A stretch of 64,000 bases of DNA from the NCBI RefSeq assembly GCF_025847205.1, contig NZ_JAOYTH010000007.1, positions 1 to 64,000 of the forward strand, given 5' to 3'. Below are positions 35,759 to 53,251 of the stretch, piece after piece; positions within the stretch are counted from its first letter, which is position 1, and each line of letters starts with the position of its first letter. Both the position numbers and the translations under genes were made by a program. The notes below the pieces were generated by a model. It had not been told where the DNA came from. It was given only the letters and a program-made list of their open reading frames with translations, and did not search any database. This stretch comes from Pararhizobium sp. YC-54. Lineage in GTDB: Bacteria; Pseudomonadota; Alphaproteobacteria; Rhizobiales; Rhizobiaceae.

Positions 35759-35776
35759 ACGGCCGGACAAAAAGCG

Positions 35777-36583
35777 ATGACATTACCTGAAGCAAGCGCC
35801 TTGGAACTCAACGGCAAGCGCGCGCTCGTGACGGGCGCCACGCAAGGTCTCGGTCGCGCGATCGCCGAGACCTTCGCGCGCGCCGGAGCGATCGTGGCCG
35901 TCCACGGCATCACCCTTGACGAGACGGAGGAGACCGTTTCCAACATTTCCGCTACCGGCGGCAGCGCATTCGGGGTCGAGGCCGACTTTCTCAAGACAGC
36001 TGAGATCGGCCCGATGGTGGAGGCTGCGGCGACCCGGATGGGCGGCATCGATATCGTGGTCAACAACGCTGGCATCGGCGCGGTCGCCGAGGTTGCCGCG
36101 ATGGACGAGGCGTTCTGGGATCGCATGATCGACATCGATCTGAAGGCGCCGTTTATCGTTACGCAAAAAGCACTCGCGCATATGAGCCGCGCGGGAGAGG
36201 GCGGACGTGTCATCTTCATATCGTCCACAGCTGCCAAGGCCGCCGAGGCAACCTTCGCCGCCTATTCGGCCGCCAAAGCCGGGATCCTGGCTTTTGCCCG
36301 CTGCCTGGCGGTCGAAGTCGGGCCAAGGGGCATTACCGTGAATGGTATTTGCCCTGGCTGGATAGACACGCCGTTATCGCGGGACCCGATCCATGAATGG
36401 GCCAAGGAAAAGGGTGTGCCTTTCGACCAATTGTGGCAGGAGACCATGGCCAATACGAACATGCTCAAACAGGTCCTCGAGCCACGCGATATCGCGGAGT
36501 GTGCGCTGTTCCTGGCAAGCGATCGGGGCCGGCATGTCACAGCTCAATCGATCAATGTCTGTGGTGGTCTCATCCATTACTGA
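35777..36583 (+). CDS. SDR-family oxidoreductase
   Basis: 268 residues. Cofactor motif VTGATQGLGRAIAETFA, NNAG in VVNNAGIGAVA, catalytic Ser in FISSTAAKAAE and Tyr/Lys in AAYSAAKAGI. AVHGITLDE at the second strand end lacks an acidic residue, which tends to favour NADP. The last gene of the rightward catabolic operon, 18 bp after the MBL gene, with a strong terminator behind it. It probably oxidises or reduces a hydroxyl/ketone intermediate. Confidence 0.86.
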   Translation: MTLPEASALELNGKRALVTGATQGLGRAIAETFARAGAIVAVHGITLDETEETVSNISATGGSAFGVEADFLKTAEIGPMVEAAATRMGGIDIVVNNAGIGAVAEVAAMDEAFWDRMIDIDLKAPFIVTQKALAHMSRAGEGGRVIFISSTAAKAAEATFAAYSAAKAGILAFARCLAVEVGPRGITVNGICPGWIDTPLSRDPIHEWAKEKGVPFDQLWQETMANTNMLKQVLEPRDIAECALFLASDRGRHVTAQSINVCGGLIHY

Positions 36584-37325: not shown

Positions 37326-38546
37326 CTAGCAAAACGCCTGAAGACCCGTGATTGCGCGTCCCAGGATCAGCGCATGGACGTCATGGGTCCCTTCATAGGT
37401 ATTGACGGTTTCCAGATTGACCATGTGGCGCATGACCTGAAATTCCTCTGAGATTCCGTTGCCGCCATGCATGTCCCGCGCCCAACGCGCAATGTCGAGC
37501 GCCTTCCCACAATTGTTGCGCTTGGCGAGCGAGATCATCTCCGGTGCGGCATTCGCGCAATCGAGAAGACGGCCAACCTGAAGGCTTGCCTGCAGGCCGA
37601 GGCTTATCTCGGTCATCATGTTGGCCATCTTGAGCTGATAAATTTGTGTCTGTGCGAGCGGCCGACCAAACTGCTTGCGGTCAAGTCCGTACTGACGGGC
37701 AGCGGAAAGGCAGAATTCGGCAGCACCCAGAACGCCCCAGCTTATCCCGTAGCGCGCGCGGTTCAGGCAGCCGAAGGGCCCCTTCAACCCTTCGACGTAG
37801 GGGAGCAGGGCGTCTTCTCCGACCGCTACATCGTCCATGACGATTTCCCCGGTAATCGATGCACGAAGCGACAACTTGCCCGCAATTTTGGGCGCCGACA
37901 GGCCTTTTGCCCCTTTCTCGAGAATGAAGCCGCGTATTTTGCCGCCATGCGCTTCGGACTTTGCCCATATGATAAAGACGTCAGCAATCGGACTGTTTGA
38001 GATCCACATCTTGCTGCCGCGCAACAGGTAGCCGTCTTTCGTCTTCTTTGCTATCGTGCGCATGCCGCCAGGGTCGGAACCAGCGTCCGGTTCCGTCAAG
38101 CCGAAACAGCCGATGAATTCACCCGAGGCGAGTTTCGGAAGATATTTCTGGCGCTGTTTTTCCGTTCCGTAGGCGTAGATCGGGTACATGACCAGGCTTG
38201 ATTGGACGGACATCATCGAACGATATCCGGAATCGACCCGTTCGATCTCGCGAGCCACGAGGCCATAGGCAACATAGGACGCACCCGCGCCGCCATATTC
38301 TTCGGGCACCGTGACACCGAGCAGCCCCATCTCGCCCATTTCCCGAAAAATCGACGGGTCGGTTTCTTCCTCGGCAAAGGCATGAATAATCCGCGGCTGA
38401 AGCTTTTCCTGGGCGTAGGCATGCGCGGCGTCGCGGATCGCGCGTTCGTCTTCCGACAATTGGTCTTCAAGGCGAAAAGCATCTTGCCAGTCGAAATTCG
38501 CCAGTTCCGGGGCGTCCTTGGCTTTGAGAAGCGGGCGCTCAGTCAT
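37326..38546 (-). CDS. gcdH: Glutaryl-CoA dehydrogenase
   Basis: 406-residue FAD enzyme that oxidises and decarboxylates glutaryl-CoA to crotonyl-CoA. The FAD/substrate loop is [16 protein letters not shown], and the catalytic Glu is in [21 protein letters not shown] (split: [16 protein letters not shown]), which is the hallmark of this group among acyl-CoA dehydrogenases. [11 protein letters not shown] is also typical. The catalytic glutamate and the arginine of the family are in place. In this locus it fits the end of the anthranilate route: ring-opened C7 dicarboxylate to glutaryl-CoA to crotonyl-CoA. It has its own 177-bp upstream region with a perfect palindrome. Confidence 0.88.
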
Positions 38547-38598
38547 CTTTTTCTCCAGTATGGGTTAGGGCGATCATTCGTCGCGCCGCTTCGAGCGG

Positions 38599-38613
38599 GG
38601 ATCACGGTGATCC
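38599..38613. promoter_or_regulatory. Perfect palindrome upstream of gcdH
   Basis: GGATCAC-G-GTGATCC, 53 bp upstream of the gcdH start codon and in the 177-bp gap behind the ligase gene. Size and symmetry fit a GntR- or MarR-type operator. It differs from the ATTTCAAGCTTAAA element of the main cluster, so a separate regulator would be expected. Confidence 0.35.
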
Positions 38614-38723
38614 GTTGGGGATTGAATCGGGAAAGGTGCGAGGCATCACGATAAAGGAGTGATGAGACCGATTGCCGGCGCTCCCCACGAATGTGGACGG
38701 GTCAATCATGCGCTTCCCCTCAA

Positions 38724-40346
38724 TCACGAGACGTCATTGCGCAGCTGAAAGCGTTGGATTTTGCCGGTCTGGGTCTTCGGCAGGGCCTCCACGAAACGCA
38801 CCCTTCGCGGATATTTGTACGGCGCGATCTCGGCCTTGACGTGATCCTGCAGCCGCTTGACCATGTCGGCATCTCCGACATATCCGTCAACCAGAACAAC
38901 ATGAGCCTCAACGATCTGACCGCGTTCGGCATCGGCCACGCCCACGACCGCGCATTCGAGCACGGCCGGGTGTGACAGCAAGGCGGCCTCCACCTCCGGT
39001 CCGGCAATGTTGTAGCCGGAAGAGACAATCATGTCGTCAGTGCGAGCAGCGAAATGGAAATAGCCATCGGCGTCCTGCCAGAATGCATCCCCGGTCAGGT
39101 TCCAGCCATCGCGGACGTATTTTTCCTGGCGCTCGTCATCAAGGTAGCGGCAGCCGGTCGGGCCTCGCACGGCCAATCGCCCGATCTCACCCCTCGCCAC
39201 CTCGCTCATTGTCTCATCGACGATGATCGCCTCGTAGCCGGTCACAGGTTTTCCCGTGCAGTCCGGACGATGGTCCGTGAAGCGGTTTGAAATGAAGATA
39301 TGCAACATTTCCGTCGCGCCTATGCCATCGAGCATCGGTTTTCCGGTCTTCGCCATCCATTCCGTGTAAACTGGCGCCGGCAAGGTCTCGCCCGCGCTCA
39401 CGGCGGCGCGAAGCGATGACAGGTCGGCACCCTCATCCATAGCCTTCAACATCATGCGATAGGCCGTTGGCGCCGTGAAGCACACAGTTGCCTTGTGCTC
39501 CTGGATGATCTCGATCATGTTTGGCGGGCTGGCCTGCTCTAAAAGTGCTGCGGCGGCGCCGAACCGCAAGGGAAAGATTGCAAGACCACCAAGACCAAAC
39601 GTAAACGCAAGCGGCGGGCTCCCGACAAAGACATCGTCAGGCGTTACATCGAGAATTTCACGGCCGTAACCATCGGCAATGACGAGCAAGTCTCGATGAA
39701 AATGCATCGTCGCCTTGGGCTCGCCTGTCGTGCCGGAGGTGAACCCGAGCAGAGCAACGTCGTCGCGCCCGGTCTGAACCGTGTTGAAGCGAACGGACTT
39801 CTTCAATGCGACACGGTCGAGGTCGGCATCGTGGTTGGCGCTACCGTCGAAGCCGATCACGGTATGTAGGTAGGCGCTGGACGACTTGCTGGTAGCAAGA
39901 TCCTCCATAAGACGGGTATCGCACAGGGCATGGGTGATTTGTGCCTTGTCGATGATTTTCGAGAGTTCGCCAGGTCGCAACATCGGCATCGTGTTGACCA
40001 CCACGGCACCGGCCTTGGTGGCCGCCAACCAGCAGGCCACCATCGCCGGATTGTTTGCCGATCTGATCAAGATCCTGTTACCAGGCCTCAGTCCGTAGTC
40101 TTCCACGAGCGCGTTCGCGATACGGTTGGTCCAGTCGGTTAATTCCTTGTAGGTTCGAATTCGACCGTTGCCGATCAGGGCGATATGATCCCCAAAGCCC
40201 ATCTCGACCATGTGGTCGCTGAGTTCCCACCCGGCGTTCAGCCATTCCGGATAGGCAAACCCGGCCGGTTTCATGACGGGCCAGGCATCCAGGGGCGGCA
40301 ATCGATCACGGGTAAAACTGTCGGTATGTCCGGTCGGTCCAAGCAT
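38724..40346 (-). CDS. 2-aminobenzoate-CoA ligase-like aryl-CoA synthetase
   Basis: About 540 residues of the AMP-forming ligase superfamily. The phosphate loop is LLGFTSGTTGEPKATMH, adenine site DGIGATEMLHIF, hinge/catalytic YFHFAARTDDMIVSSGYNIAGPEVE (split: RTDDMIVSSGYNIAG), and the final lysine in PKTQTGKIQRFQL. It belongs to the benzoate/2-aminobenzoate-CoA ligase branch. Together with the fused monooxygenase/reductase in the same operon this argues for anthranilate as substrate; benzoate or salicylate cannot be ruled out from sequence alone. The ATG at 40346 has AAGGGGAGAGAG before it. It is the last gene of the leftward cluster. Confidence 0.85.
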   Translation of the reverse strand: MLGPTGHTDSFTRDRLPPLDAWPVMKPAGFAYPEWLNAGWELSDHMVEMGFGDHIALIGNGRIRTYKELTDWTNRIANALVEDYGLRPGNRILIRSANNPAMVACWLAATKAGAVVVNTMPMLRPGELSKIIDKAQITHALCDTRLMEDLATSKSSSAYLHTVIGFDGSANHDADLDRVALKKSVRFNTVQTGRDDVALLGFTSGTTGEPKATMHFHRDLLVIADGYGREILDVTPDDVFVGSPPLAFTFGLGGLAIFPLRFGAAAALLEQASPPNMIEIIQEHKATVCFTAPTAYRMMLKAMDEGADLSSLRAAVSAGETLPAPVYTEWMAKTGKPMLDGIGATEMLHIFISNRFTDHRPDCTGKPVTGYEAIIVDETMSEVARGEIGRLAVRGPTGCRYLDDERQEKYVRDGWNLTGDAFWQDADGYFHFAARTDDMIVSSGYNIAGPEVEAALLSHPAVLECAVVGVADAERGQIVEAHVVLVDGYVGDADMVKRLQDHVKAEIAPYKYPRRVRFVEALPKTQTGKIQRFQLRNDVS

Positions 40347-40395
40347 CTCTCTCCCCTTCTGCTCGTCCAAGTCTGTTGCCTGCGGTGTCTGGCGC

Positions 40396-40794
40396 TCAGT
40401 CCGAGACGACAGCGGTCGCCTCGATCTCGACCTTGGCGCGATCCTCCATCAGCGCGCTCACCTCCACGACCGCCATCGCCGGGTAATGCCTGCCGATCAC
40501 GTCCTTGTAGACGCGTCCAAGCGCCTTGAGATCCGCGAGATATTCAGCCTTGCTGGTCACATACCAGGTCAGCCGGACGAGATGCTGAGGGCCTGCACCA
40601 CCTTCCGCCAGAACTGCCACAATGTTGCGCAGTGTCTGTTCGACCTGCGCTATGAAATCGTCCGTTTCGAATTGGCACTGACTGTTCCAGCCGATCATCC
40701 CACCTGTATAAATCGTACGTCCCTGTGCAAGGACGCCGTTGGAGTAGCCTTTGGCGGCGACCCATCCCTCGGGATGCAAAGTCTTGTGCGTCAT
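40396..40794 (-). CDS. RidA/Rid-family protein (no Arg105)
   Basis: 132 residues, trimeric Rid fold (SNGVLAQGRTIYTGGMIGWN, QVEQTLRNIVAVLAEGG, KVEIEATAVVSD). Canonical RidA enzymes hydrolyse 2-imino/enamine intermediates with an Arg in PAR-S; here the segment reads HYPAMAVVEV, so that Arg is Met. It belongs to one of the Rid subfamilies without demonstrated imine deaminase activity. The anthranilate route needs removal of an enamine nitrogen, and this is the only candidate in the cluster. The stop of the thioesterase gene overlaps its ATG, so the two are coupled. Confidence 0.82.
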   Translation of the reverse strand: MTHKTLHPEGWVAAKGYSNGVLAQGRTIYTGGMIGWNSQCQFETDDFIAQVEQTLRNIVAVLAEGGAGPQHLVRLTWYVTSKAEYLADLKALGRVYKDVIGRHYPAMAVVEVSALMEDRAKVEIEATAVVSD

Positions 40795-41198
40795 TTTATC
40801 TCCATGAATTCCGAAATGTGATTGAGAGCGGACTGCGACCAAGGCTGTGGACGCCCTGTCGCGGAAACGTAGACAAGTGTGAGCGTGGCACTGAGCCGGC
40901 TCTCGTCATTGCAGGTGGCGTCCAGGGCGAGATCGAGCGCCGACGTGCCAATGCGTTTTACGCTCAGCTGCCAATCAAGACCGTCGCCGAGCCTCGAAGG
41001 CGCATGAAAGTTGGTTTCGATGCGTGCCGTTGGCACGCCCTCACGACGCGCCATCATGTCCTCAAATGGACGTCTCACGATGTCGCGAAAAAAGTTCTCG
41101 ACAACCGAGTTGCACATCTCGAAATAGCGCGGGTAGAAGACGATGCCTGCGGGGTCGCAATGATTGAACTCCACGCGGATAGATCGGCGATAAATCAT
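40791..41198 (-). CDS. Hot-dog-fold acyl-CoA thioesterase (4-hydroxybenzoyl-CoA thioesterase family)
   Basis: 135 residues. The active-site signature EFNHCDPAGIVFYPRYFE (Asp as catalytic residue) is textbook for the 4-HBT family that hydrolyses aryl- or acyl-CoA thioesters. In an aryl-CoA pathway it may release CoA from dead-end intermediates. It overlaps its neighbours by four bases on both sides (ATGA type), so it is translationally coupled between the acyl-CoA dehydrogenase and the Rid gene. Confidence 0.87.
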   Translation of the reverse strand: MIYRRSIRVEFNHCDPAGIVFYPRYFEMCNSVVENFFRDIVRRPFEDMMARREGVPTARIETNFHAPSRLGDGLDWQLSVKRIGTSALDLALDATCNDESRLSATLTLVYVSATGRPQPWSQSALNHISEFMEIK

Positions 41199-42328
41199 AG
41201 CAAGCTCCGTGCGATCACGAGCCGCTGGACATCGCTTGCGCCTTCGTAAATCCGTAACGCCCTGACGTCCCGGTAGAGCGCTTCGACGGTGAAGCCCTGG
41301 CGGACCCCGTCGCCGCCGTGGAGCTGCAGCGCCATGTCGATGACTTCCTGCGCGGCTTCGGTCGCATAAAGCTTCGCCATCGCCGCTTCCCGCGAGATCC
41401 GGGCAGCGCCCATATCCTTTGCCCAGGCTGCGCGATAAATGAGCAGCGCGGCGGCATCGACCTTCAGCGCCATGTCCGCGATATGACCCTGCACCATCTG
41501 CAAGGACGCCAGCGGCTCCCCTTGGATCCGGCGAGTTCGGGTTCGCTCAAGCGCCTCGTCCAGTGCGCGTCGCGCCATGCCAAGGGCCGCAGCGCCGACT
41601 GTCGGCCGGAACACGTCAAGCACCGCCATGGCAAGCTTGAACCCCTCCCCGCTCTTGCCGATCAGAGCACTATCCGGGAGAAACACACGGTCCAGCTTTA
41701 ACGATGTCAATGGGTGGGGTGCGATCACCTCTATGCGTTCGCTTGACGTAAGCCCGTGCGCGTCCGCCGGCATGAGAAAAGCCGAAATCCCGCGTGCCCC
41801 CGGCGCCTCGCCGGTGCGGGCGAAAATGACGAAAATATCGGCAATGGCGCCGTTGGAGATAAAGGTTTTGTCGCCGGAAAGGCTCCAGCCACCTTCAACC
41901 CTCTCGGCGATGGTCGAAAGATTGGCGACGTCAGAGCCCGATCCCGGCTCCGTCAACGCAAAGGCCGCAATAGCCCTGCCTGACCGTGTTTTCTCGAGCC
42001 AGACGCGCTGGCTGTGCGTGCCAAAAAAGGAGACCGCACCCATGCCAAGCCCCTGCATGGCGAAAGAAAAATCCGCCAGCGGATCATGCCGGGCAAGTGT
42101 TTCGCGAACAAGGCACAGCGTCCTGACATCGAGCTTCCCGGCCTCATCTGAGCCGGTGTGCTTCAGGAAGCCGGCATTGCCCAACGAGTCGACGAGCGCC
42201 CTGCAAGCCACGTCGACATCCGAATGGTCCACCGGAAGGTTTTGTCGGGCCCATTCGTCGACCGCCAAGGCCACATCGCGATGCCGCTCGTCAAAAAAGG
42301 GCCAGTTCAGAAAACTCGTGTCGCTCAT
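41195..42328 (-). CDS. Acyl-CoA dehydrogenase
   Basis: 377 residues. FAD loop FALTEPGSGSDVANLS, second motif GDKTFISNGAIAD, and the C-terminal catalytic Glu in RIYEGASDVQRLVIAR, all as in the medium/short-chain group. Cofactor residues look intact. In the 2-aminobenzoyl-CoA route a dehydrogenation of a ring or side-chain acyl-CoA is needed after ring reduction; this is the candidate, distinct from the glutaryl-CoA enzyme at 37.3 kb. It overlaps the thioesterase gene by four bases and lies 47 bp after the enoyl-CoA hydratase-like gene. Confidence 0.87.
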   Translation of the reverse strand: MSDTSFLNWPFFDERHRDVALAVDEWARQNLPVDHSDVDVACRALVDSLGNAGFLKHTGSDEAGKLDVRTLCLVRETLARHDPLADFSFAMQGLGMGAVSFFGTHSQRVWLEKTRSGRAIAAFALTEPGSGSDVANLSTIAERVEGGWSLSGDKTFISNGAIADIFVIFARTGEAPGARGISAFLMPADAHGLTSSERIEVIAPHPLTSLKLDRVFLPDSALIGKSGEGFKLAMAVLDVFRPTVGAAALGMARRALDEALERTRTRRIQGEPLASLQMVQGHIADMALKVDAAALLIYRAAWAKDMGAARISREAAMAKLYATEAAQEVIDMALQLHGGDGVRQGFTVEALYRDVRALRIYEGASDVQRLVIARSLL

Positions 42329-42375
42329 CTCTCGCTCTCCCTAAAAAGGGGCATTCAGCCTTGCACGGACCGCGA

Positions 42376-43188
42376 TCAGTTGCCCATGAACACGGGCTTC
42401 TCCTTGGCAACGAAAGCATGGTAGGCGCGCTCGAAATCCCTGGTCTGCATGCAGATCGCCTGGGCTTGCGCCTCGGCCTCGATTGCTTGCTCCAGGCCCA
42501 TGTTCCATTCCTGCAGCAATTGGGTTTTGGTCATGGAATGTGCGAATGTCGGGCCCGCCGCGATCCGGGCAGCCATTTTCATCGTTTCAACCTCGAGAAC
42601 ATCCGCGCCGTAAAGTGCGTTCCAGAAACCCCAGCGTTCACCCTCGGCCGCGCTCATGGAGCGACCGGTGTAGAGGAGTTCCGAGGCACGTCCCTGCCCG
42701 ATGATCCGCGGGAGCATGGCGCAAGCGCCCATGTCGCAGCCTGCAAGACCGACACGCGTGAACAGGAATGCGCATTGTGCGTTGGGCGCCGCAAACCTAA
42801 TGTCAGACGCCATTGCGATGATTGCGCCCGCCCCGACGCATACGCCCTCGACAGCGGCAATAATTGGCTTGCCGCAGCCGATCATCGCCTTGACGAGATC
42901 GCCTGTCATGCGCGTGAAGGCGAGCAACGCCTTCATATCCATCGCAACGAGGGGACCGATGATCTCGTGGACGTCGCCACCCGAGCAGAAGTTTCCGCCA
43001 TTCGACGCGAAGACCACGACATCCACGTCGGTTGCGTAAGGCAGGGCACGAAAGAGGTCGCGCAGCTCCGCATAGCTGTCGAAGGTCAGTGGGTTCTTGC
43101 GCTCCGGTCTGGAGAGGCGGATTGTTCCAACACGGTCATCGACATCCCAAGCGAAATGCTGTGTCGACAAATCAGTGAGTTTTGTCAC
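42376..43188 (-). CDS. Crotonase-family protein lacking both hydratase glutamates
   Basis: 270 residues from a GTG overlapping the MarR stop codon (GTGA). Oxyanion motifs are clear ([26 protein letters not shown]), so acyl-CoA binding is expected. The two acid/base glutamates of enoyl-CoA hydratase are absent: the usual G-C-E-L is GAII and the usual P-E is TR in [12 protein letters not shown]. Other crotonases with replaced glutamates do ring-opening or retro-Claisen hydrolysis, isomerisation or dehalogenation. A role in cleaving the cyclohexane ring of the anthranilate intermediate is therefore a fair guess. Confidence 0.85.
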
Positions 43189-43622
43189 TTTGGACCTCCA
43201 ACACGTTTGAGGATGTCTGAGATCATGTCGACCTCCTCTGCCGACAGGCTTGAGAAAATCCGGTCGACCTCGCCCTCGTGCTGGGTGGCCAGTTCCTCGA
43301 AGAGGTGCAAACCCTCAATAGTGAGGCTGACAAAGGTCGTTCGGCGATCGGTCGACGACGGCGTTCGGCGCACGAGCCCGTCTGTTTCCAGTCGGTCGAC
43401 GACAGCGGTCGCATTGCCGTTCGAGACCAGAAGCATGCGAGAGAGCTCCGTCATGGTCAGGCCTTCGCGCCGTCGATACAGGGCTGCCATCACGTCAAAT
43501 CGCGGCAGCGTGGTGTCGTGCTTGACGCGCAGGAATTCGCGAAGTTCGCCTTCCGCCGCCCGCGTCGCGCGCAGGATCCGGATCCACATCTTCAAACGGC
43601 GTTTCGACAGAGGGTGGCTCAT
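43185..43622 (-). CDS. MarR-family transcriptional regulator
   Basis: 145 residues starting [17 protein letters not shown]. Winged [25 protein letters not shown] then [19 protein letters not shown], wing [19 protein letters not shown]. MarR proteins in aromatic-CoA clusters (such as BadR-type) are often released by the CoA thioester of the substrate. Coded within the ligase-monooxygenase operon, with ATGA overlap on the SDR side and GTGA on the crotonase side. Its probable operator is the inverted repeat at 46684-46713 between the two divergent halves of the cluster. Confidence 0.88.
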
Positions 43623-44359
43623 ATTTCGCCCCCGGCGATGGCGACAGCCTGCCCATTGATGCTTTCTGCCCCCGGCATGCAGAGCATGTGCGCCATGGCG
43701 CTCACTTCGCAGGGTTGTACGAGCCGTTTTTGTGGATTGGAGGCGGTCAACGCGGCAACTGCGGCCTCCCTTGGTTTGCCGGTCTTTTCGACGATATTGG
43801 CAATCGATCGCTCCGTCATTTCGGTATCCAGAAAGCCCGGGCAAAGGGCGTTGATCGTGATCGGCCGAGATGCAACCTCGAGCGCCAGACTGCGCACGAG
43901 ACCGATGATGCCGTGCTTCGACGCTGCATAGGGCGCGACATATCGGTATCCCTTCAAACCGGCGGTAGAAGCGATGGCGATCAGCCGCCCCCAGCCCGTC
44001 ATTTGTCGCAGTCCCTCGCGAAACGTGAGGAAGGTGCCGGTCATGTTCACGGATAGCATCGTGTTCCAATGATCGAGGGTGACCCGCTCAAATGGCGCAC
44101 TGTCGGCGACGCCCGCATTGGCGATGACGATATCGCATGGACCTGCCCTTTCGAACATGTCTTGCACGGCGGCCTCGTCGGTCACATCCGCCTGAAGGGC
44201 CGATATTTCTGGTATCGCTGAAGCAACGCTCTCCAGCGGCGCGAGCCTGCGTCCCACCACGACGACCTCTGCACCGCTTCTCGCAAATGAACGCGCGAGG
44301 TCGGCGCCCACGCCGGTTCCGCCGCCGGTGATCAACACACGTTTTCCCGAAAGCGTCAT
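43619..44359 (-). CDS. SDR-family 3-hydroxyacyl-CoA-type dehydrogenase
   Basis: 246 residues. Cofactor motif ITGGGTGVGADLARSFA, IANAGVADSAPF, catalytic Ser in IAIASTAGLKG and Tyr/Lys in APYAASKHGI. VVVGRRLAP with a basic residue after the second strand suggests NADP(H). Related proteins act as 3-hydroxyacyl- or cyclic-alcohol dehydrogenases in aryl-CoA pathways. Placed directly behind the 2-aminobenzoyl-CoA monooxygenase/reductase with a four-base overlap, so probably processes its cyclic hydroxy/oxo product. Confidence 0.86.
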   Translation of the reverse strand: MTLSGKRVLITGGGTGVGADLARSFARSGAEVVVVGRRLAPLESVASAIPEISALQADVTDEAAVQDMFERAGPCDIVIANAGVADSAPFERVTLDHWNTMLSVNMTGTFLTFREGLRQMTGWGRLIAIASTAGLKGYRYVAPYAASKHGIIGLVRSLALEVASRPITINALCPGFLDTEMTERSIANIVEKTGKPREAAVAALTASNPQKRLVQPCEVSAMAHMLCMPGAESINGQAVAIAGGEI

Positions 44360-46638
44360 GCGCGGATTGCCTCTTGCTGGCGTTGGTGGAGCCGGAACAA
44401 AAGGTCACGACCGCCCTTGTAGGGTGCCGGCCATTCGCTTTCGGTATCGCCCTGCTCGACCGCAGCGTGCAATGTCCAATAGGGGTCGGCCAGATGGACG
44501 CGCGCCAGGCAAATGAGGTCCGCACGGCCCGCCATCAAGATACCGTTTACCTGATCATAGTCGCTGATGTTGCCGACCGTCATGGTTGCAATACCCGCCT
44601 CGTTTCGAATGCGATCGCTAAAGGGCGTCTGAAACATACGGCCATAGATCGGTTTTTCGGAAGGGTCGGTCTGGCCCGACGACACGTCGATAATATCGGC
44701 GCCCGCGGCACGGAACGCCTTTGCGATCAACACCGCCTCTTCCGGAGAGACGCCGCCGTCGATCCAGTCATTGGCTGAAATCCGGACCGACATCGGTTTG
44801 CGTTCAGGCCAGACGGCACGCATCGCGCGGAAAACCTCCAGCGGGAACCGCATGCGGTTTTCAAGGCTTCCGCCGTAGTCGTCGTCGCGCCGGTTGGTGA
44901 CAGGACTGATGAAACTGGCGATGAGATAGCCGTGTGCGGCATGCAATTCGATCATGTCGGCACCGATACGCGCGGCCATCTCGGCTGCGGCGACGAACTG
45001 GTCGCGCACCCGTTCCATGTCGGCCCGGTCCATTGCCCGCGGAACCGCGTTTTCCGGTTTGTAGGAGAGCGCCGACGCGCTGATCGTCTCCCAGTTTCCA
45101 TCTTCGAGTGGTTTATCGATGCCTTCCCAGGCGACGCGGGTTGATCCCTTACGTCCCGAGTGGCCGATCTGCATACAAAATTTGGCTGTGGTCTCAGTAT
45201 GGATGAAGTCTGCGAGACGCTTCCACGCTGCCTCATGCTCGGGAGCGTAGAGACCGGGGCAACCGGGCGTTATCCGGCCCTCGGCGCTGACACAGGTCAT
45301 TTCTGTGTAAATCAGTCCTGCACCGCCCTTCGCCCGCTCGCCATAGTGGGTGAAATGCCAATCGGTCGGAGTGCCATCAACTGCCTTATATTGGGCCATC
45401 GGCGACATGACGATCCGGTTCTTAAGCTCCATATCGCGCAGCTTGAAAGGAGCGAACATCGGGCGGCGTCCCTTCTGCCCGCCTGACTGCTCCTGAAACC
45501 AGTCTTCCGCCGCTTGCAGCCATTGTGGATCGCGCAGCCGAAGATTTTCGTGGCTGATGCGTTGGCTTCGCGTCAGCAGAGAATAGGCAAACTGCGTCGG
45601 CTCCATGCCAAGGTAGCGCTCGACCTGTTCGAACCATTCAAGACTGTTGCGGGCCGCAGATTGCAAGCGCAAAACCTCGATGCGCCGTTCCTCCTGATAT
45701 CTGACGAAGGCGTCCTTCATCGTGGGTTCGCTGTGCAGGTATTCTGCAAGGGCGATTGCACTGTCGAATGCAAGCCGCGTCCCCGAACCGATCGAAAAGT
45801 GGCCGGTGGCGGCCGCATCGCCCATCAGAACGACGTTTTCGTGATACCAGCGCTCGCAGATGACACGCGGGAATTGCGTCCACACGGCGGAGCCGCGAAG
45901 ATGATCGGCATTCGACATGAGCGCATGGTCGCCCAGGTGGCGCTCGAAAATACGGCGGCACGTCTCGATGGTTTCCTCCTTCGACATGTCGGGGAAGCCA
46001 AGCCTTTCCCAAGTGTCGGGCAAGGTCTCCACAATGAAGGTCGCGGTGTTGGCATCGAACTGGTAGACGTGCGCCCATATCCAGCCATGCTCGGTTTTCT
46101 CGAAGATGAAGGTGAACGCATCGTTGAATTTCTGGTGCGTGCCGAGCCATACGAATTTGCACACGCGCGTGTCGATGTCAGGATTGAAGACGCTTTCATA
46201 CTCGCGGCGCACAAGGGAATTTATACCGTCGCTGCCAATCACGAGGTCGAAATCCTTGCGGTAGGTCTCGCATGACTTGAAATCGACTTCGAAACGTAGG
46301 TCGACGCCAAGCTCACGGGCGCGCTGCTGCAGGATGATCAGCATCTGCTTGCGCCCGATTCCGGCAAAGCCATGCCCGCCCGAGACCGTCCTCGTTCCAT
46401 CGTGAACGACGGCGATATCGTCCCAATACGAAAAGTTGGAGCGGATCGCATCGGTGCTGACGGGATCGTTGCGCTGCATTCGCGCCAGCGCGTCGTCCGA
46501 CAGCACGACACCCCAACCGAACGTGTCATTGGCGCGGTTACGCTCGAGCACCGTGACCTCGTGAGAGGGATCGCGGAGTTTCATCGAGATAGCGAAATAC
46601 AGGCCCGCCGGGCCACCGCCAAGGCATAGAATTTTCAT
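44356..46638 (-). CDS. 2-Aminobenzoyl-CoA monooxygenase/reductase-type fusion
   Basis: 760-residue two-domain flavoenzyme. Residues 1-395 are an FAD aromatic hydroxylase: ILCLGGGPAGLYFAISM, DLVIGSDGINSLVRREY and VVLMGDAAATGHFSIG. From about 400 on it is an Old-Yellow-Enzyme barrel: MFAPFKLRDMELKNRIVMSP (FMN site), LIYTEM and HAAHGYLIASFISP. Exactly this fusion is known from Azoarcus evansii, where it hydroxylates 2-aminobenzoyl-CoA and reduces the ring with NADH to 2-amino-5-oxocyclohex-1-ene-carboxyl-CoA. Databases also label such proteins salicylyl-CoA 5-hydroxylase/oxidoreductase. The ATG at 46638 has GGGAGGTGTCGC before it. It is first gene of the leftward operon. Confidence 0.9.
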   Translation of the reverse strand: MKILCLGGGPAGLYFAISMKLRDPSHEVTVLERNRANDTFGWGVVLSDDALARMQRNDPVSTDAIRSNFSYWDDIAVVHDGTRTVSGGHGFAGIGRKQMLIILQQRARELGVDLRFEVDFKSCETYRKDFDLVIGSDGINSLVRREYESVFNPDIDTRVCKFVWLGTHQKFNDAFTFIFEKTEHGWIWAHVYQFDANTATFIVETLPDTWERLGFPDMSKEETIETCRRIFERHLGDHALMSNADHLRGSAVWTQFPRVICERWYHENVVLMGDAAATGHFSIGSGTRLAFDSAIALAEYLHSEPTMKDAFVRYQEERRIEVLRLQSAARNSLEWFEQVERYLGMEPTQFAYSLLTRSQRISHENLRLRDPQWLQAAEDWFQEQSGGQKGRRPMFAPFKLRDMELKNRIVMSPMAQYKAVDGTPTDWHFTHYGERAKGGAGLIYTEMTCVSAEGRITPGCPGLYAPEHEAAWKRLADFIHTETTAKFCMQIGHSGRKGSTRVAWEGIDKPLEDGNWETISASALSYKPENAVPRAMDRADMERVRDQFVAAAEMAARIGADMIELHAAHGYLIASFISPVTNRRDDDYGGSLENRMRFPLEVFRAMRAVWPERKPMSVRISANDWIDGGVSPEEAVLIAKAFRAAGADIIDVSSGQTDPSEKPIYGRMFQTPFSDRIRNEAGIATMTVGNISDYDQVNGILMAGRADLICLARVHLADPYWTLHAAVEQGDTESEWPAPYKGGRDLLFRLHQRQQEAIRA

Positions 46639-46683
46639 GCGACACCTCCCAAGGATATCCAAGTGTGAGCTCAATGATAAATT

Positions 46684-46713
46684 ATTTCAAGCTTAAAGTT
46701 TTATGCTTGAAAT
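46684..46713. promoter_or_regulatory. Inverted repeat operator in the divergent anthranilate promoter
   Basis: ATTTCAAGC (46684-46692) and GCTTGAAAT (46705-46713) are perfect inverse copies with a 12-bp spacer. The left half extends into ATTTCAAGCTTAAA, itself nearly palindromic, and that 14-mer recurs at 51785-51798 before the kynurenine-formamidase-like gene. It lies between the ATGs at 46638 and 46742, over the likely promoters of both transcripts; the MarR protein of the cluster is the probable binder. Confidence 0.65.
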
Positions 46714-46741
46714 ATTTTTGATTTGGATGATGCTGTGACCT

Positions 46742-47500
46742 ATGAAGCACCTCGTTACACAGGATGAAGCCGGTTGGGTCCGTGTTGTCATCGACCGGCA
46801 GCAGGCACGAAACGCGCTCAATACGTCTTTGCTCGCCGACCTGGCGGCTGAATTTGCAACTTATGCCGTCGACCCTGCTTGCCGGGCCGTGCTCGTCCAC
46901 GGCGCGGGCGGAAACTTCGCCGCCGGTGCAGACATCGGCGAGATCGAGACAAAGACACGGGTTGAGGGCGAAGTCGACGCGCGTAAAGCCCACTGGGCGT
47001 CGCTTCGCGCCTTTCCAAAACCGGTCGTCGCGGCCGTTGACGGATTTGCGCTCGGAGGCGGCCTGGAACTGGCACTAATTGCCGACCTGCTGGTCGTCGG
47101 CCAGACTGCGCGCCTTGGTCTGCCCGAAACAAATCTTGGACTCATCCCGGGCGCCGGCGGCGGCCAACGTCTGATGGCGCGCATCGGACCCGCCCGTGCC
47201 GCCCGTATGATCTTGACCGGTGAGATCATCGACGCGGCAACAGCCTATGCATGGGGTCTCGCCTCGCACATTGCAGAGGAAAGCGCCGTCCCGCTTGCCG
47301 AAGACCTGACCACGAATTTGGCGCGTCGCGCACCGCTCGCCCTTGCCGCGGCGAAGGCGTCTCTTGTTCTGGGCAGCGAAAACGTTGCGGCATTGCAGGC
47401 TGAGCGCACCGCGTTCGAAATCCTTCTCGACAGCGTCGACAAGTTGGAAGGCATCCAGGCATTCCGCGAAAAAAGAAAGCCGGAGTTTAGGGGACAATGA
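46742..47500 (+). CDS. Enoyl-CoA hydratase (crotonase, canonical)
   Basis: 252 residues. Oxyanion motif NFAAGADIGEIE; both catalytic glutamates are present in FALGGGLELALIAD and GLPETNLGLIPGAGGGQRL. It should hydrate an unsaturated acyl-CoA such as crotonyl-CoA or a 2-enoyl pimelate-like intermediate. The ATG lies 29 bp right of the operator repeat, so the leader is very short. Four-base overlap with the next gene. Confidence 0.9.
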   Translation: MKHLVTQDEAGWVRVVIDRQQARNALNTSLLADLAAEFATYAVDPACRAVLVHGAGGNFAAGADIGEIETKTRVEGEVDARKAHWASLRAFPKPVVAAVDGFALGGGLELALIADLLVVGQTARLGLPETNLGLIPGAGGGQRLMARIGPARAARMILTGEIIDAATAYAWGLASHIAEESAVPLAEDLTTNLARRAPLALAAAKASLVLGSENVAALQAERTAFEILLDSVDKLEGIQAFREKRKPEFRGQ

Positions 47501-48612
47501 CCACCGTTGGAATTATCGGACTTGGAACCATGGGGCTGGGCATTGTCCAGGCCTTCGCCGCTGCCGGGTTCGATGTGCTCGCCACGGATGCCTCCGATGT
47601 CATGCGCGACAGCACCGTTGAGCGGCTGAGGTCGGATCTTGCAAGCCGTGTGGAAGCGGGCAAGCTCTCGCGTGATCATGTGGAACCGCTCTCATCCCGT
47701 GTCACCGTGATCGATGATGTCCACCGCCTCCATCCCGCCGACCTTATCGTCGAGGCTGTGGTCGAGAACCTGGAGGTGAAGCAAGCGCTGTTTGCTAAGC
47801 TCGAGGATATTGTCAGTAGAAACTGCATCCTCGCCACCAACACATCTTCCTTGTCGGTTGGCGCAATAGCTGAGGTGTTGTGGCGACCGGAGCGCTTATT
47901 AGGCCTGCATTTTTTCAATCCCGCACCGGTCATGAAGCTTGTCGAACTCGTCGCTCATTCAGGAGCCGATGCATCTGTAGTTGCAACAGCGCGCAGTCTC
48001 GCTGAGACGTTAGGAAAGACCGTCATCGAATGCCCCGATCGCCCGGGCTTTATCGTCAACCGGTGTGCACGGCCATTCTACGGAGAGGCTCTGGCTCTGC
48101 TCGAAGAGGGAAGAAGCCCGTCGGATATCGACAGCGCCATGGTCGCAGCTGGCTATCGGCTTGGCCCCTTCGGTCTGATCGATTTGGTCGGAGCCGACAT
48201 CAACCTGGCAGCGACGGAAAGCCTTGCGCTGGCCATGGGCGGCAGTCCGCGGTTCCATGTTTTCGCGACGCTTCGCCAAAAAGTCACTGCCGGTGACCTC
48301 GGCCGGAAGGCTGGCCGGGGGTTTCTTTATCCCGATCGACCCGGCCAGCCGCCTCATGATGCAGCCGAGATCGTGCAACGAATCGAGGCCGCCCTGGTCA
48401 ACGAAGCAGCCTGGCTTTTTTCCGAAGGCGGGACGACGGCTGAAGGCATCGATACCGCCGTTAAACTCGGTCTCAACTTCCCACGTGGCCCCTTCGAGAT
48501 TCGCAAAGGCAGATCCGGTGCAATTGCTGCTGCGCTCAGCGCACTCGAAGACCGCGCCCAGCCGCATCTCAAGGGTCGATACCGACCTGCCCCCGGCTTG
48601 GAGGAAACATAA
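47497..48612 (+). CDS. 3-Hydroxyacyl-CoA dehydrogenase
   Basis: 371 residues. NAD site GIIGLGTMGLGIVQAF, catalytic His in LLGLHFFNPAPVMKLVEL, Ser in TNTSSLSVGAIA, and CPDRPGFIVNRCARPFY between the domains. The protein is about 90 residues longer than a minimal 3-hydroxybutyryl-CoA dehydrogenase because it carries a second C-terminal helical domain, as in the 3-hydroxyadipyl-CoA group of aromatic pathways. It overlaps the hydratase gene by four bases and the thiolase start by one. Confidence 0.89.
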   Translation: MTTVGIIGLGTMGLGIVQAFAAAGFDVLATDASDVMRDSTVERLRSDLASRVEAGKLSRDHVEPLSSRVTVIDDVHRLHPADLIVEAVVENLEVKQALFAKLEDIVSRNCILATNTSSLSVGAIAEVLWRPERLLGLHFFNPAPVMKLVELVAHSGADASVVATARSLAETLGKTVIECPDRPGFIVNRCARPFYGEALALLEEGRSPSDIDSAMVAAGYRLGPFGLIDLVGADINLAATESLALAMGGSPRFHVFATLRQKVTAGDLGRKAGRGFLYPDRPGQPPHDAAEIVQRIEAALVNEAAWLFSEGGTTAEGIDTAVKLGLNFPRGPFEIRKGRSGAIAAALSALEDRAQPHLKGRYRPAPGLEET

Positions 48613-49787
48613 TGCGCGACGTCTACATCTGTACGATGCGACGCACACCGATTGGTCGCTACGGTGGTGTCCTGGCAACTGTCCGGCCCGACGATCTCGC
48701 TGCCCACGTGATAGATGGCTTGATCGCACTGCACCCTGATCTGGCGGTCGATGAAGTGATTTTCGGCTGCGCCAATCAGGCGGGAGAGGACAACCGCAAT
48801 ATTGCCCGCATGGCGGTGCTTTTGTCTCAACTGCCTCATACTGTTCCAGGCATCACGGTCAATCGGCTTTGTGCCTCGGGGCTCGATGCTGTCATTGGCG
48901 GCGCACGCGCCATTCGCGATGGCGCCGACGTTGTCATCGCTGGCGGCGTCGAAAGCATGAGCCGGGCGCCCATCGTCATGCCAAAAGCCACCGCGCCATT
49001 TGACCGCAAGGTCGAGATCTATGACACAACCATCGGCTGGCGGTTCGTAAACCAGCGTATCGCTCAGCTGCACGGCATAGAGTCCATGCCCGAGACGGCA
49101 GAGAACGTTGCTGAAGACCATGCCATCACCCGGGCCGATCAGGATGCTTATGCACTGCGCTCTCAGGAGCGCTACGACATGACGTGGCACAGCACCGATA
49201 TCAGCCCCGTAGTGGTTCCCGGCAAAAAAACCGACGCTCTGGTCCTGGAGGACGAACATCCGCGCTCCACCTCGCTGGAGGCCCTTTCGCAACTGCGCGC
49301 GCCGTTTCGCGCCGGCGGTTCGGTGACCGCTGGCAACGCGGCCGGGGTTAACGACGGGGCGGCCGCTCTCATCCTGGCATCTGCACAGGCACTGCGTAAG
49401 TACAAGCTGACACCGCTTTCGCGGGTGGGAAGGGCGGCCTCAGCAGGCGTGTCCCCGAGAGTGATGGGCATTGGCCCGATTGCCGCGCTTTCCCGGCTCG
49501 TGTCCATGGGAGTTCAATCACCTGATGAGCATGACGTCATTGAAATCAACGAGGCGTTCGCTGCGCAAGTTCTCGCCTGCACGCGCGCCTGGGGCTTGAA
49601 AGACGACGACGGCCGCGTCAACGCCAAGGGCGGCGGCATCAGTATGGGCCATCCTTTGGGCATGTCGGGTGCGCGCATAGCCGGAACTGCAGCAAGGCGG
49701 CTGCACGAAAGCGGTGGAAAATCAGCGATCGTCACATTGTGTGTCGGAGTCGGTCAGGGTGTGGCGATGGAACTTCTACAGGTTTGA
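48612..49787 (+). CDS. Acyl-CoA thiolase (3-oxoadipyl-CoA/acetyl-CoA acetyltransferase type)
   Basis: 391 residues. The nucleophilic Cys is in TVNRLCASGLDAVIGGA near residue 88 (NRLCASGLDA), the His in GGGISMGHPLGMSGARI, and the second Cys in VTLCVGVGQGVA. It is closest in style to PcaF/PaaJ-type 3-oxoadipyl-CoA thiolases, which would suit dicarboxylyl-CoA intermediates. It ends the first part of the rightward operon; a 203-bp gap with no gene follows before the second dehydrogenase. Confidence 0.89.
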   Translation: MRDVYICTMRRTPIGRYGGVLATVRPDDLAAHVIDGLIALHPDLAVDEVIFGCANQAGEDNRNIARMAVLLSQLPHTVPGITVNRLCASGLDAVIGGARAIRDGADVVIAGGVESMSRAPIVMPKATAPFDRKVEIYDTTIGWRFVNQRIAQLHGIESMPETAENVAEDHAITRADQDAYALRSQERYDMTWHSTDISPVVVPGKKTDALVLEDEHPRSTSLEALSQLRAPFRAGGSVTAGNAAGVNDGAAALILASAQALRKYKLTPLSRVGRAASAGVSPRVMGIGPIAALSRLVSMGVQSPDEHDVIEINEAFAAQVLACTRAWGLKDDDGRVNAKGGGISMGHPLGMSGARIAGTAARRLHESGGKSAIVTLCVGVGQGVAMELLQV

Positions 49788-49990
49788 GGCCAGCTGGAAC
49801 CGCCTTGGCCAGCCATCTTGCTAGTGGTGCCGCGCAACGACGCTCAACACACCCGGACCATATTTTTCGCCGGGGCAGATAGTTCTTCGCTTTGCTCCTT
49901 AGACGGGACTATAGGCGGGAAACGCCACATTGCTTAACCAATGCCACGGCGTTCGTTACCTTAGGCGAACGGCTCGATAGGGACCACACC

Positions 49991-50866
49991 ATGACAATTT
50001 GCACAGTGGGCATAATAGGCGCCGGCCAAATGGGATCCGGAATTGCCCATGTTATGCTTCAGGCTGGTTATAAGGTCGTCCTTTTAGACATCGCAGAGAC
50101 CAAGCTTAACACGTCAGTTGCCACGGTCCGCTCCCTCATCAATCGGCACGCAGCAAAAACCAATCTTTCACAAAGCGAACAGCAGCAGATCTTTGCAAAG
50201 CTAAGTACGACAATGTCAATCGTCGAGATCGGCTCCTGTGACCTGGTAATTGAAGCCGCAAGCGAAAACGAGGCTGTCAAGAGCAAGATTTTCGACGATC
50301 TTGCCCCTCACACCGAGGCCCATACGATTGTCACCTCTAACACCTCCTCACTATCGATTACGCGTCTTGCCGGCCACACTGCGCATCCCGAACGGTTCAT
50401 GGGCCTCCATTTTATGAAACCGGTTTCCGCGATGCGTCTTGTTGAACTCATTCATGGTATCGCCACGAGTTCAGAGACGTTCAAAACAGTCAGCGAGCTT
50501 GTAAAGCGGATCGGCAAGACGCCGGTTGTGGCAGCAGACTACCCGGCCTTCATCGTCAACCGGATTTTGATTCCGATGATCAATGAGGCCATCTACACGC
50601 TTCATGAAGGTGTAGGATCGATCGCGGGCATCGATCAGGCTATGAGGCTGGGCGCCAATCATCCCATGGGACCGCTTGAACTTGCCGATTATATTGGTCT
50701 TGACGCCTGTTTAGCCATCATGACGACCCTGCATAAGGGCCTCGCGGACAGCAAATACAGGCCATGCCCACTACTCGTCAAATATGTCGAGGCAGGCTGG
50801 CTTGGACGCAAAGTTCGAAAAGGTTTCTACGATTATAGCGTGCCCATCGCTCGCCCAACCAGGTAA
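49991..50866 (+). CDS. 3-Hydroxybutyryl-CoA dehydrogenase
   Basis: 291 residues, minimal two-domain enzyme: GIIGAGQMGSGIAHVML (NAD), SNTSSLSITRLA (Ser), RFMGLHFMKPVSAMRLVELI (catalytic His), DYPAFIVNRILIP. It differs from the longer dehydrogenase two genes upstream and fits the last beta-oxidation step after crotonyl-CoA. The ATG at 49991 is supported by AGGGACCACACC; an upstream in-frame start at 49892 is not. It converges with the formamidase-like gene 13 bp downstream. Codon use is slightly more AT-rich than in the preceding operon, so it may have been added separately. Confidence 0.89.
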   Translation: MTICTVGIIGAGQMGSGIAHVMLQAGYKVVLLDIAETKLNTSVATVRSLINRHAAKTNLSQSEQQQIFAKLSTTMSIVEIGSCDLVIEAASENEAVKSKIFDDLAPHTEAHTIVTSNTSSLSITRLAGHTAHPERFMGLHFMKPVSAMRLVELIHGIATSSETFKTVSELVKRIGKTPVVAADYPAFIVNRILIPMINEAIYTLHEGVGSIAGIDQAMRLGANHPMGPLELADYIGLDACLAIMTTLHKGLADSKYRPCPLLVKYVEAGWLGRKVRKGFYDYSVPIARPTR

Positions 50867-50879: not shown

Positions 50880-51710
50880 CTAAATGGATAGCAAGGCACG
50901 CGTTAAGGGATGGGCCGGGTCCATGAGCCCATCAATGATATTGAAGTGATGCTTATCCGGTTCGACGACGGCGGCGGTCGATGCACCCAGGCCCTGCCAG
51001 ATATTTGCCAGCAATGCGTTTTGCCGCAAGAACTCTTCTCGCTCGGCACCTCCGACCCAACAGCATAGGCGCGCCTTGGCAACGGGTGTCAAAAGGGCCG
51101 GGCTTTCAGTATTGGCTTCTGCTGCATCGATCGAAAGGGTCGCGTTCATCGCGGTGTTCATGAGAGGCCTTAGATCATGAACGCCAGAGATCGAGACGAC
51201 CTTTTGAACGCGGTGTAGCACCTCAATTGGCAGCGGCGACGTCGTGGTAATCATGCGCGTCACAAGGTGTCCGCCTGCTGAATGACCGACGAGATGGATC
51301 GGTCCTGTGAAAAGCGTGGCGGCCTTGGCAACAGCCAGTGCCACCTCATTGGTGATGTCGCGAACGCGGCTTTCCGGGCAAAGTGTGTAAGACGGCATGG
51401 CGACAGCATAGCCCTGCTCGACGGCGCCGGCCGCCAGATGAGACCAGTAGCTTTTATCAAGGCGCATCCAGAAACCGCCGTGCACGAAGGTCACCAGGCC
51501 TCGCGGTGCATTCTGGGGCAAGAAGATGTCGAGAACGTTTCTGGGACGCTCTCCATATGAAACGTTGAGTTTCGCGCGGCCCGCCCCATGCAGGGCGTCT
51601 CGAAAGCTTGTCGCAGGCGCAATCCAGGCTTCCGGCCACCGCTCGCCGCCCGCGATGTTCGGACCGTTGGCGTATGCGTTGTCCCAATCGCGGACACCAT
51701 ACTCGATCAT
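50880..51710 (-). CDS. Kynurenine-formamidase-like alpha/beta hydrolase (arylformamidase)
   Basis: 276 residues. The motif VTFVHGGFWMRLDKSYW and the nucleophile elbow HLVGHSAGGHLVTRM are the two signatures of the eukaryotic-type kynurenine formamidases; acid and His occur in VEPDKHHFNI. These enzymes convert N-formylkynurenine to kynurenine, the precursor of anthranilate through kynureninase. Neither tryptophan dioxygenase nor kynureninase is in the window. The start at 51710 has GGAGAGTTCAGC upstream. The promoter carries the same 14-mer as the anthranilate operator. Another carboxylic-ester or carbamate substrate remains possible. Confidence 0.78.
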   Translation of the reverse strand: MIEYGVRDWDNAYANGPNIAGGERWPEAWIAPATSFRDALHGAGRAKLNVSYGERPRNVLDIFLPQNAPRGLVTFVHGGFWMRLDKSYWSHLAAGAVEQGYAVAMPSYTLCPESRVRDITNEVALAVAKAATLFTGPIHLVGHSAGGHLVTRMITTTSPLPIEVLHRVQKVVSISGVHDLRPLMNTAMNATLSIDAAEANTESPALLTPVAKARLCCWVGGAEREEFLRQNALLANIWQGLGASTAAVVEPDKHHFNIIDGLMDPAHPLTRALLSI

Positions 51711-51784
51711 GCTGAACTCTCCGACATTAGAAGCCCTGCCTGAACCCATTGGCATTGATCGACACAATGACCGAGATAAAAATA

Positions 51785-51798
51785 ATTTCAAGCTTAAA
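51785..51798. promoter_or_regulatory. Second copy of the ATTTCAAGCTTAAA element
   Basis: Identical to the 14-mer at 46684-46697, here 75 bp upstream of the formamidase-like gene and also preceded by GATAAA. The right-hand GCTTGAAAT arm of the main operator is missing. It suggests that the MarR regulator controls this gene too. The rest of the 231-bp gap to 51942 shows nothing else. Confidence 0.55.
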
Positions 51799-51941
51799 AC
51801 ATTTTCGAGAGTGGTGGACGTGCTCTTCTCGTGTTTGCTCGAGCCGGACCGGCAGCTGTGGCGCAAGGCGAACGTTCTGCCGGAGTTCGGCAAACGGTCA
51901 GTCCCCAGTTGCTAGTTGTGAGTTGAACCCGCTACGCAATC

Positions 51942-53174: not shown

Positions 53175-53251
53175 ATCATGCCTCTTGTTTCGCGCTGCGA
53201 TCTTCGCGCATCACTGCTGCCCGTGGGCTGGTCGAGCAACCATCTGCCCGT

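Follow-up and report, generated by a model that had tools for sequence, protein, structure and literature searches.

The first reactions of the aerobic, coenzyme A (CoA)-dependent breakdown of anthranilate have been known since 1990, and a curated resource on catabolism omitted the pathway in 2022 for lack of knowledge (PMC9007349). The 2-aminobenzoyl-CoA pathway of Azoarcus evansii comprises a CoA ligase and a fused monooxygenase/reductase, and its later steps are said to use beta-oxidation enzymes (via PMC4539516, PMC3534580); its genes are reported to lie on a small plasmid (PMC4539516). For Arthrobacter sp. Rue61a, ligase activity on anthranilate was shown, and CoA esters of anthranilate breakdown were found by liquid chromatography-mass spectrometry (PMC3534580). 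The gene cluster described here shares a CoA ligase and the fused enzyme (in the following, the fusion) with Azoarcus evansii. It lies in a stretch of 64,000 nucleotides from Pararhizobium sp. YC-54 (Rhizobiaceae; contig NZ_JAOYTH010000007.1, positions 1 to 64,000), referred to as the window, and had originally been predicted to be a plasmid-borne gene set for aerobic CoA-dependent anthranilate degradation.

Altogether, the cluster is explained as a unit for the aerobic, CoA-dependent degradation of anthranilate that is carried on a plasmid and probably controlled by MarR, with the order of steps proposed below, and this explanation as a whole is given a probability of about 0.6. That the cluster encodes such a route is, taken by itself, very likely. 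This part of the original prediction gained support from tryptophan-pathway genes beside the cluster in relatives, from a conserved His in the old yellow enzyme (OYE) domain of the fusion and from the lack of gentisate genes. Two genes can be named for testing, i.e. a Rid gene for the release of nitrogen and the crotonase-fold gene ECH1 for the opening of the ring. All catalytic assignments are predictions from sequence. The genes form two divergent operons with a putative operator in between:

37326..38546, minus strand: predicted glutaryl-CoA dehydrogenase (GCDH); best solved relatives 4w9u and the bona fide GCDHs 3gnc, 3eom and 1sir
38724..40346, minus strand: aryl-CoA ligase, probably anthranilate-CoA ligase; TIGR02262 with 358 bits (cut-off 375), 4wv3
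40396..40797, minus strand: Rid/YjgF-family protein with Met108 at the position of Arg105 in RidA, candidate beta-enamino-acyl-CoA deaminase; PF01042, E 4.7e-21
40791..41198, minus strand: 4HBT-like thioesterase; PF13279, with 3ck1 and 4-hydroxybenzoyl-CoA thioesterases as relatives
41195..42328, minus strand: acyl-CoA dehydrogenase ACAD2; profile matches
42376..43188, minus strand: crotonase-fold protein ECH1, candidate ring-opening hydrolase or isomerase; NF006107 with 471 bits (cut-off 330)
43185..43658, minus strand: MarR-family regulator; profile match
43619..44359, minus strand: short-chain dehydrogenase/reductase (SDR), candidate C5-ketone reductase; profile matches
44356..46638, minus strand: fused FAD monooxygenase/OYE reductase, predicted 2-aminobenzoyl-CoA monooxygenase/reductase; NF006101 with 1276.7 bits (cut-off 1078)
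46683..46714, no strand assigned: putative inverted-repeat operator; arms TATTTCAAGC and GCTTGAAATA, spacer 12
46742..47500, plus strand: predicted enoyl-CoA hydratase ECH2 with both catalytic Glu kept; PRK09674/PaaF-like, under the cut-off
47497..48612, plus strand: 3-hydroxyacyl-CoA dehydrogenase HAD1, PaaH-like; profile match
48612..49787, plus strand: PcaF-like thiolase; 548.7 bits (cut-off 605)
49988..50866, plus strand: predicted 3-hydroxybutyryl-CoA dehydrogenase HAD2; NF005715 with 456.6 bits (cut-off 420)
50880..51893, minus strand: alpha/beta hydrolase, distant relative of kynurenine formamidase, membership in the unit uncertain; 2pbl with 250 bits, kynurenine formamidase 4e11 with 60 bits, relatives in 9 of the 80 surveyed loci

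Every gene named in the original prediction was found as a full-length open reading frame, and the families were confirmed by profile searches. The claimed set of SDR, acyl-CoA dehydrogenase, two crotonases, two 3-hydroxyacyl-CoA dehydrogenases, thiolase and GCDH is complete, with two acyl-CoA dehydrogenases if GCDH is counted. The Rid gene, the thioesterase gene and the putative operator had been overlooked, and the MarR gene was also absent from the list. The claim that every needed activity was listed has to be corrected, as the list held no enzyme for removal of the amino group, for which the Rid gene is a candidate. A location on a plasmid (or chromid) holds, since a repC gene as found in repABC replicons (246669-247190, 223 bits; one of eight repC-like matches in the genome) lies on the same contig of 316,086 bases.

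The arrangement of the genes is not due to chance, as the same genes recur around the fusion in most loci of the main survey. Of 594 confirmed genome loci with the fusion, this survey takes the best 80, which stem mostly from Rhodobacterales and are not independent. In the 63 loci with at least 9 kb of sequence downstream, ECH1 and ACAD2 were each found 62 times, followed by SDR (61), MarR (60), Rid (59), ligase (55) and thioesterase (47). The upstream side, readable in 55 loci, showed HAD1 in 22, ECH2 in 16, thiolase in 9 and GCDH in 3 cases, and a thiolase was located on the downstream side in 2 of the 63. Anywhere in the 80 loci, GCDH was linked in four and HAD2 in none. Among 397 genomes drawn from the phylum, 83 carried the fusion, as did 71 of 199 in one family sample. 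The 84 other loci of this wider draw that were read around the fusion split into 70 of the ECH1 type (anthranilate type), three of the gentisate type described below and 11 of neither type, five of the latter on stretches shorter than 13 kb. The 70 ECH1-type loci contained SDR and MarR (64 each), ACAD2 (62), ligase and Rid (58 each), thioesterase (23), a FadJ-like gene (13) and GCDH (4). The same core was observed on plasmids of Deinococcus, Comamonas, Aminobacter, Azospirillum, Ensifer and Thalassospira. When 150 loci were clustered after masking to find further linked families, what emerged was chiefly an ABC transporter of the branched-chain type, with its binding protein in 27 loci and its permeases in 19 and 18; no linked family was found that would decide the end of the pathway.

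The fusion is the sole match above the NF006101 cut-off in its genome. Concerning the substrate, the ligase is a member of the benzoate-CoA ligase family and among solved structures comes closest to the anthranilate-CoA ligase 4wv3; it is probably an anthranilate-CoA ligase itself. Of the 80 loci, 21 have a linked tryptophan 2,3-dioxygenase and 7 a linked kynureninase; one or the other occurs in 17 of the 70 wider ECH1-type loci compared to none of seven gentisate-type loci. In Thalassospira, kynU and kynA even lie within the operon, between the ligase and Rid genes. Genes resembling indolepyruvate oxidoreductase accompany the fusion in 13-15 of the 80 loci. A plasmid of Azospirillum thermophilum (L101) joins auxin and anthranilate breakdown, with an iad-like auxin-degradation set including a Rieske oxygenase directly upstream of the anthranilate cluster; the end product of the iad pathway is anthranilate (PMC12633357, PMC11630574).

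NCBI calls the family of the fusion "bifunctional salicylyl-CoA 5-hydroxylase/oxidoreductase", which would point to the degradation of salicylate via salicylyl-CoA and gentisate. Clusters that fit this name exist: in the gentisate type, fumarylacetoacetate hydrolase (FAH)-like and gentisate dioxygenase-like genes stand in place of Rid, SDR, ECH1 and ACAD2, and such a pair accompanies the fusion in 3 of the 84 wider loci and in 4 of 14 plasmid loci, which were chosen by hand among 95 records that matched over the full length. For the window, however, salicylate is very improbable and was rejected as substrate. Neither gentisate dioxygenase nor FAH is among the genes called beside its fusion, the fusion keeps His566 in its reductase domain as well as Lys497, and Rid, SDR and ECH1, all missing from the seven gentisate-type loci (L094, L100, L104, L106, L162, L165 and L196), are present.

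The two types also differ within the fusion. An alignment of 178 fusions (150 ECH1-type, 7 gentisate-type and 21 other) has no more than four columns that distinguish the ECH1 type from the gentisate type by a criterion of our own choosing, and all four lie in the OYE domain. At His566 (HAAHGY motif), His was found in 150 of 150 ECH1-type and 21 of 21 other sequences, compared to Gln in seven of seven of the gentisate type, which also showed Arg at Lys497 in all seven and an altered Tyr571 in three. In the OYE structure 5ocs, a His occupies this column, and in OYEs this His binds the substrate. The window fusion retains it, the active-site residue expected of a working reductase domain. In trees of 40 fusions (all seven of the gentisate type and 33 other hand-chosen rows), the gentisate type appears in two places; a single clade was rejected with the monooxygenase domain alone (approximately unbiased test, p 0.00027) and, more weakly, with the OYE domain minus five columns (p 0.02). 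On account of these two separate places, the reductase site seems to have disappeared on two occasions, in clusters that require an aromatic product, and the window enzyme retains it. His566 can serve as a sequence test that separates the monooxygenase/reductases from the gentisate-type hydroxylases, which carry the same NCBI name. One genome (G431) carries both types, an anthranilate-type locus (L140, no Rid in the stretch read) and a gentisate-type locus (L162). One in-frame stop each was observed in the fusion frames of L144 (G323) and L165 (G483), perhaps due to decay or assembly error.

The Rid protein shows the Rid/YjgF fold and has Met instead of Arg at the RidA position 105. RidA, Rid1-3 and RutC depend on this Arg, whereas Rid4-7 lack it (PMC4433059, PMC8113886); Rid4 and Rid7 have Trp at this place, and in Rid5 and Rid6 it is variable (PMC4433059). 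With neither Arg nor Trp, the window protein would fit Rid5/Rid6 or no named subfamily. All 70 aligned relatives carry the Met, as do 70 of the 73 Rid-like matches in the wider loci, the remaining three being weak (35-58 bits). The Arg binds the carboxylate of the substrate (PMC4433059). Since the product predicted for the fusion is a beta-enamino acid like the 3-aminoacrylate of RutC, but with a thioester in place of the carboxylate, a loss of the Arg would be expected. In the wider sample, Rid was found in 67 of 80 anthranilate-type and in none of seven gentisate-type clusters (Fisher p 1.3e-5, uncorrected for kinship and with only two gentisate lineages). On plasmids, the scores of its relatives fall sharply from 114-206 bits to 72 bits or less among the matches listed (60 of 211 records), and four of six Met-type Rid plasmid loci that were read have a fusion within 9 kb. 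In Arthrobacter, a CoA ester with the formula C7H8O4 was reported in vivo only from cells grown on anthranilate; it may be the deaminated cyclohexanedione-carboxyl-CoA (PMC3534580). A limited literature collection yielded no paper naming aminobenzoyl-CoA or salicylyl-CoA together with RidA. Judged from this pattern, the odds are about even that Rid acts as deaminase of the beta-enamino-CoA product of the fusion.

Another explanation would be that the enamine deaminates spontaneously and that Rid is an accessory, damage-control protein conserved for protection. Rid proteins indeed speed reactions that also run without enzyme (PMC8113886), and the fusion product loses ammonia non-enzymatically in acid (PMC3534580). 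Moreover, no deaminase activity has so far been shown for Rid proteins lacking the Arg (PMC8113886, PMC4433059). On the other hand, the near-universal linkage of Rid to the pathway, its lack in the seven gentisate-type clusters and the invariant residues including Met108 point to one specific ligand. This explanation is considered less likely.

For the opening of the ring, ECH1 was compared with crotonase-fold enzymes of known function. It lacks the two catalytic Glu of enoyl-CoA hydratases: at the first position, Ile was found in 142, Met in 8 and Val in 1 of 151 sequences (Ile in the window), and at the second Phe in all 151 including the window. All 151 share an Asp at one position. ECH2, in comparison, keeps both Glu in 23 of 23 sequences. 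The residue pattern of ECH1 is closer to PaaG than to MenB or BadI, and the idea that its Asp corresponds to that of BadI was dropped, as the alignment puts it near the Asp of PaaG and not at the place found in MenB and BadI. No badI match was detected in the genome at E <= 1e-100, nor was TIGR03210 among the best 25 families in the window scan. ECH1 as the ring opener is put at slightly less than an even chance; the function as hydrolase is favoured, with isomerase as the alternative, because no other conserved gene remains that might break the bond between C1 and C2 and the genome has no badI match at this threshold.

Combining these assignments, the following order of steps is proposed. The ligase would form 2-aminobenzoyl-CoA, and the fusion would hydroxylate C5 and reduce the ring to 2-amino-5-oxocyclohex-1-ene-1-carboxyl-CoA; these two steps are established for the family in the literature, while we infer the remaining four. 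Rid would split ammonia hydrolytically from the beta-enamino thioester, leaving the 2-oxo acyl-CoA, and SDR would reduce the C5 ketone before or after this reaction. ECH1 would then cut the ring between C1 and C2, resulting in a C7 dicarboxylyl-CoA that keeps the C5 oxygen, from which ACAD2, ECH2, HAD1 and the PcaF-like thiolase would remove acetyl-CoA to give a C5 dicarboxylyl-CoA. If the oxygen is kept, the end would be 2-hydroxyglutaryl-CoA, which the thioesterase could release; if it is lost by some further step, glutaryl-CoA would be converted to crotonyl-CoA by GCDH.

Several observations weigh against this scheme besides the lack of a demonstrated activity for Arg-less Rid proteins. Rid was not found in the stretch read of 13 of the 80 anthranilate-type loci of the wider sample (the rest of those genomes was not searched), and two of the six Met-type Rid plasmid loci, both from Sulfitobacter, have no fusion within 9 kb. 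The place of the Asp in ECH1 leaves room for an isomerase. ACAD2, not found in 8 of the 70 wider loci, is not strictly core. Furthermore, no tryptophan dioxygenase was found in the genome of the window, whose anthranilate must therefore arise in another way. A more far-reaching reading is put at somewhat less than an even chance: the Met-type Rid would be a dedicated beta-enamino-acyl-CoA deaminase supplying the missing nitrogen-removing step, the Asp-type ECH1 would be a ring opener other than BadI, and at least two lineages would have turned the fused enzyme into a plain 5-hydroxylase, losing the reductase His once it was joined to gentisate genes. As an observation on the Sulfitobacter plasmids themselves (L251, L253), the Met-type Rid and a thioesterase lie beside a branched-chain-type ABC transporter.

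The original prediction had the C7 dicarboxylyl-CoA beta-oxidised to glutaryl-CoA, which GCDH would decarboxylate oxidatively to crotonyl-CoA. The evidence on this sequence of reactions is divided. By kinship and by its YEGTHD motif with the catalytic Glu, 37326-38546 is predicted to be a GCDH; it follows the ligase on the same strand after 177 bases, and HAD2 would serve the crotonyl-CoA end. Clusters of this kind also seem to have recruited GCDH several times: on a tree of 26 rows, nine distinct cluster-linked GCDHs (ten rows, window included) require four label changes, and starred branches force at least three of these, although the changes may include losses, as gains and losses are indistinguishable. 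Six of the nine form one clade, and the copy of L214 is a doubtful long branch (49% identical). The window GCDH groups with ordinary Rhodobacterales GCDHs (97/93) and is 88% identical to a Gemmobacter GCDH that is not linked to the cluster of its genome. Among 49 cluster-bearing genomes from the 80 loci (isolates preferred), GCDH was found in 46 at E <= 1e-90, with no matched cluster-free control; the three without are drafts whose completeness is not stated. Against glutaryl-CoA, the linkage of GCDH in just 4 of 80 surveyed and 4 of 70 wider anthranilate-type loci has to be considered, as well as a second copy (81% identical) on another contig of the genome and the use of GCDH in lysine breakdown. 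There is also no operator-like site before GCDH. The ring chemistry points in the same direction: after a cut between C1 and C2 and one round of beta-oxidation, the oxygen from C5 would sit at carbon 2 of the remaining five-carbon unit, which would then be 2-hydroxyglutaryl-CoA; being gamma to the thioester, this oxygen should not be removable by a crotonase-type beta-elimination. A hydroxylated C5 product would thus be favoured, and glutaryl-CoA as a normal intermediate is rated less likely than not.

With regard to control, TATTTCAAGC-N12-GCTTGAAATA is a perfect inverted repeat between the divergent fusion and ECH2 genes, of which none is expected in shuffles. It is unique at up to three mismatches in the genome of 6.24 Mb, compared to two forward and two reverse matches of a backward control pattern at the same tolerance. 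The word ATTTCAAG is common to 102 of 177 upstream stretches of relatives, and an operator-like site (at most 4 of 16 mismatches, at most 300 bases upstream of the fusion) was found in 77 of 174 loci. With at most two mismatches, 44 sites were observed, while ten shuffled-arm controls gave no site nine times and one site once. As this single conserved operator lies between the operons, a common regulator probably controls both, the simplest candidate being the MarR protein encoded in the unit, which would bind there. A scan of the genome at up to three mismatches revealed no such site in front of GCDH or HAD2, and promoter and terminator scans stayed at chance level. In the gentisate-type cluster L196, an operator-like site (3 of 16 mismatches, around position 6559) lies directly before a gentisate dioxygenase-like gene, so the regulator may be common to both pathway types. 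In five clusters of the window's own family (L180, L184, L186, L187, L189), another operator-like site follows the Rid gene at a distance of about 2.1-2.3 kb, in front of further genes.

A member of the Rhodobacterales is the probable donor of the cluster, because the window fusion is nearest to sequences of the Paracoccus group (84%), while fusions of its own family reach 67-69% at best among those read. The plasmid genes at 1-6 kb are of the Rhizobium/Agrobacterium type. Upstream of the cluster, a second catabolic-looking block (31547-36583, plus strand) comprises an FMN reductase, a luciferase-like monooxygenase (LLM), an alpha/beta hydrolase, a cupin, a metallo-hydrolase and an SDR; its genes are linked to the fusion in none of the 80 loci, except for cupin-like genes in nine. 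Beyond the cluster, 51942-55700 encodes an M20 amidohydrolase, a fused amino-acid ABC permease/ATPase and a binding protein. In the Comamonas locus L091, a similar set of M20, fused ABC, LLM oxidoreductases and FMN reductase adjoins the fusion gene.

If the proposed assignments are true, the ring-opening half of the pathway would be complete with Rid and ECH1, and a first function would be given to a Rid protein without Arg105. This offers a role to try for the Arg-less Rid proteins, which PMC4433059 calls mysterious. Given the frequency of the fusion in the phylum and in the family sample, this gap in knowledge bears on much carbon from tryptophan and auxin.

Compared to known systems, the release of ammonia proposed for Rid has counterparts in RutC (3-aminoacrylate deaminase) and AmnE (2-aminomuconate deaminase), Rid-family proteins that act on enamines in catabolic pathways (PMC8113886, PMC6742747). 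RutC needs its Arg104, whereas the window protein has Met there and a CoA thioester instead of a carboxylate in its proposed substrate. The reaction proposed for ECH1 equals that of BadI (2-ketocyclohexanecarboxyl-CoA hydrolase), a crotonase-fold ring opening of 2-oxocyclohexane-carboxyl-CoA, from which ECH1 differs in the PaaG-like place of its Asp and in a genome without a badI match at E <= 1e-100. The gentisate-type clusters share the family of the fused enzyme (51-55% identical) but have Gln in place of the OYE His. Arthrobacter sp. Rue61a, in which the CoA esters were found, differs in being actinobacterial. Azoarcus evansii, according to citing papers, shares a CoA ligase and the fusion with the window, and the assignments of Rid and ECH1 are those of the present analysis.

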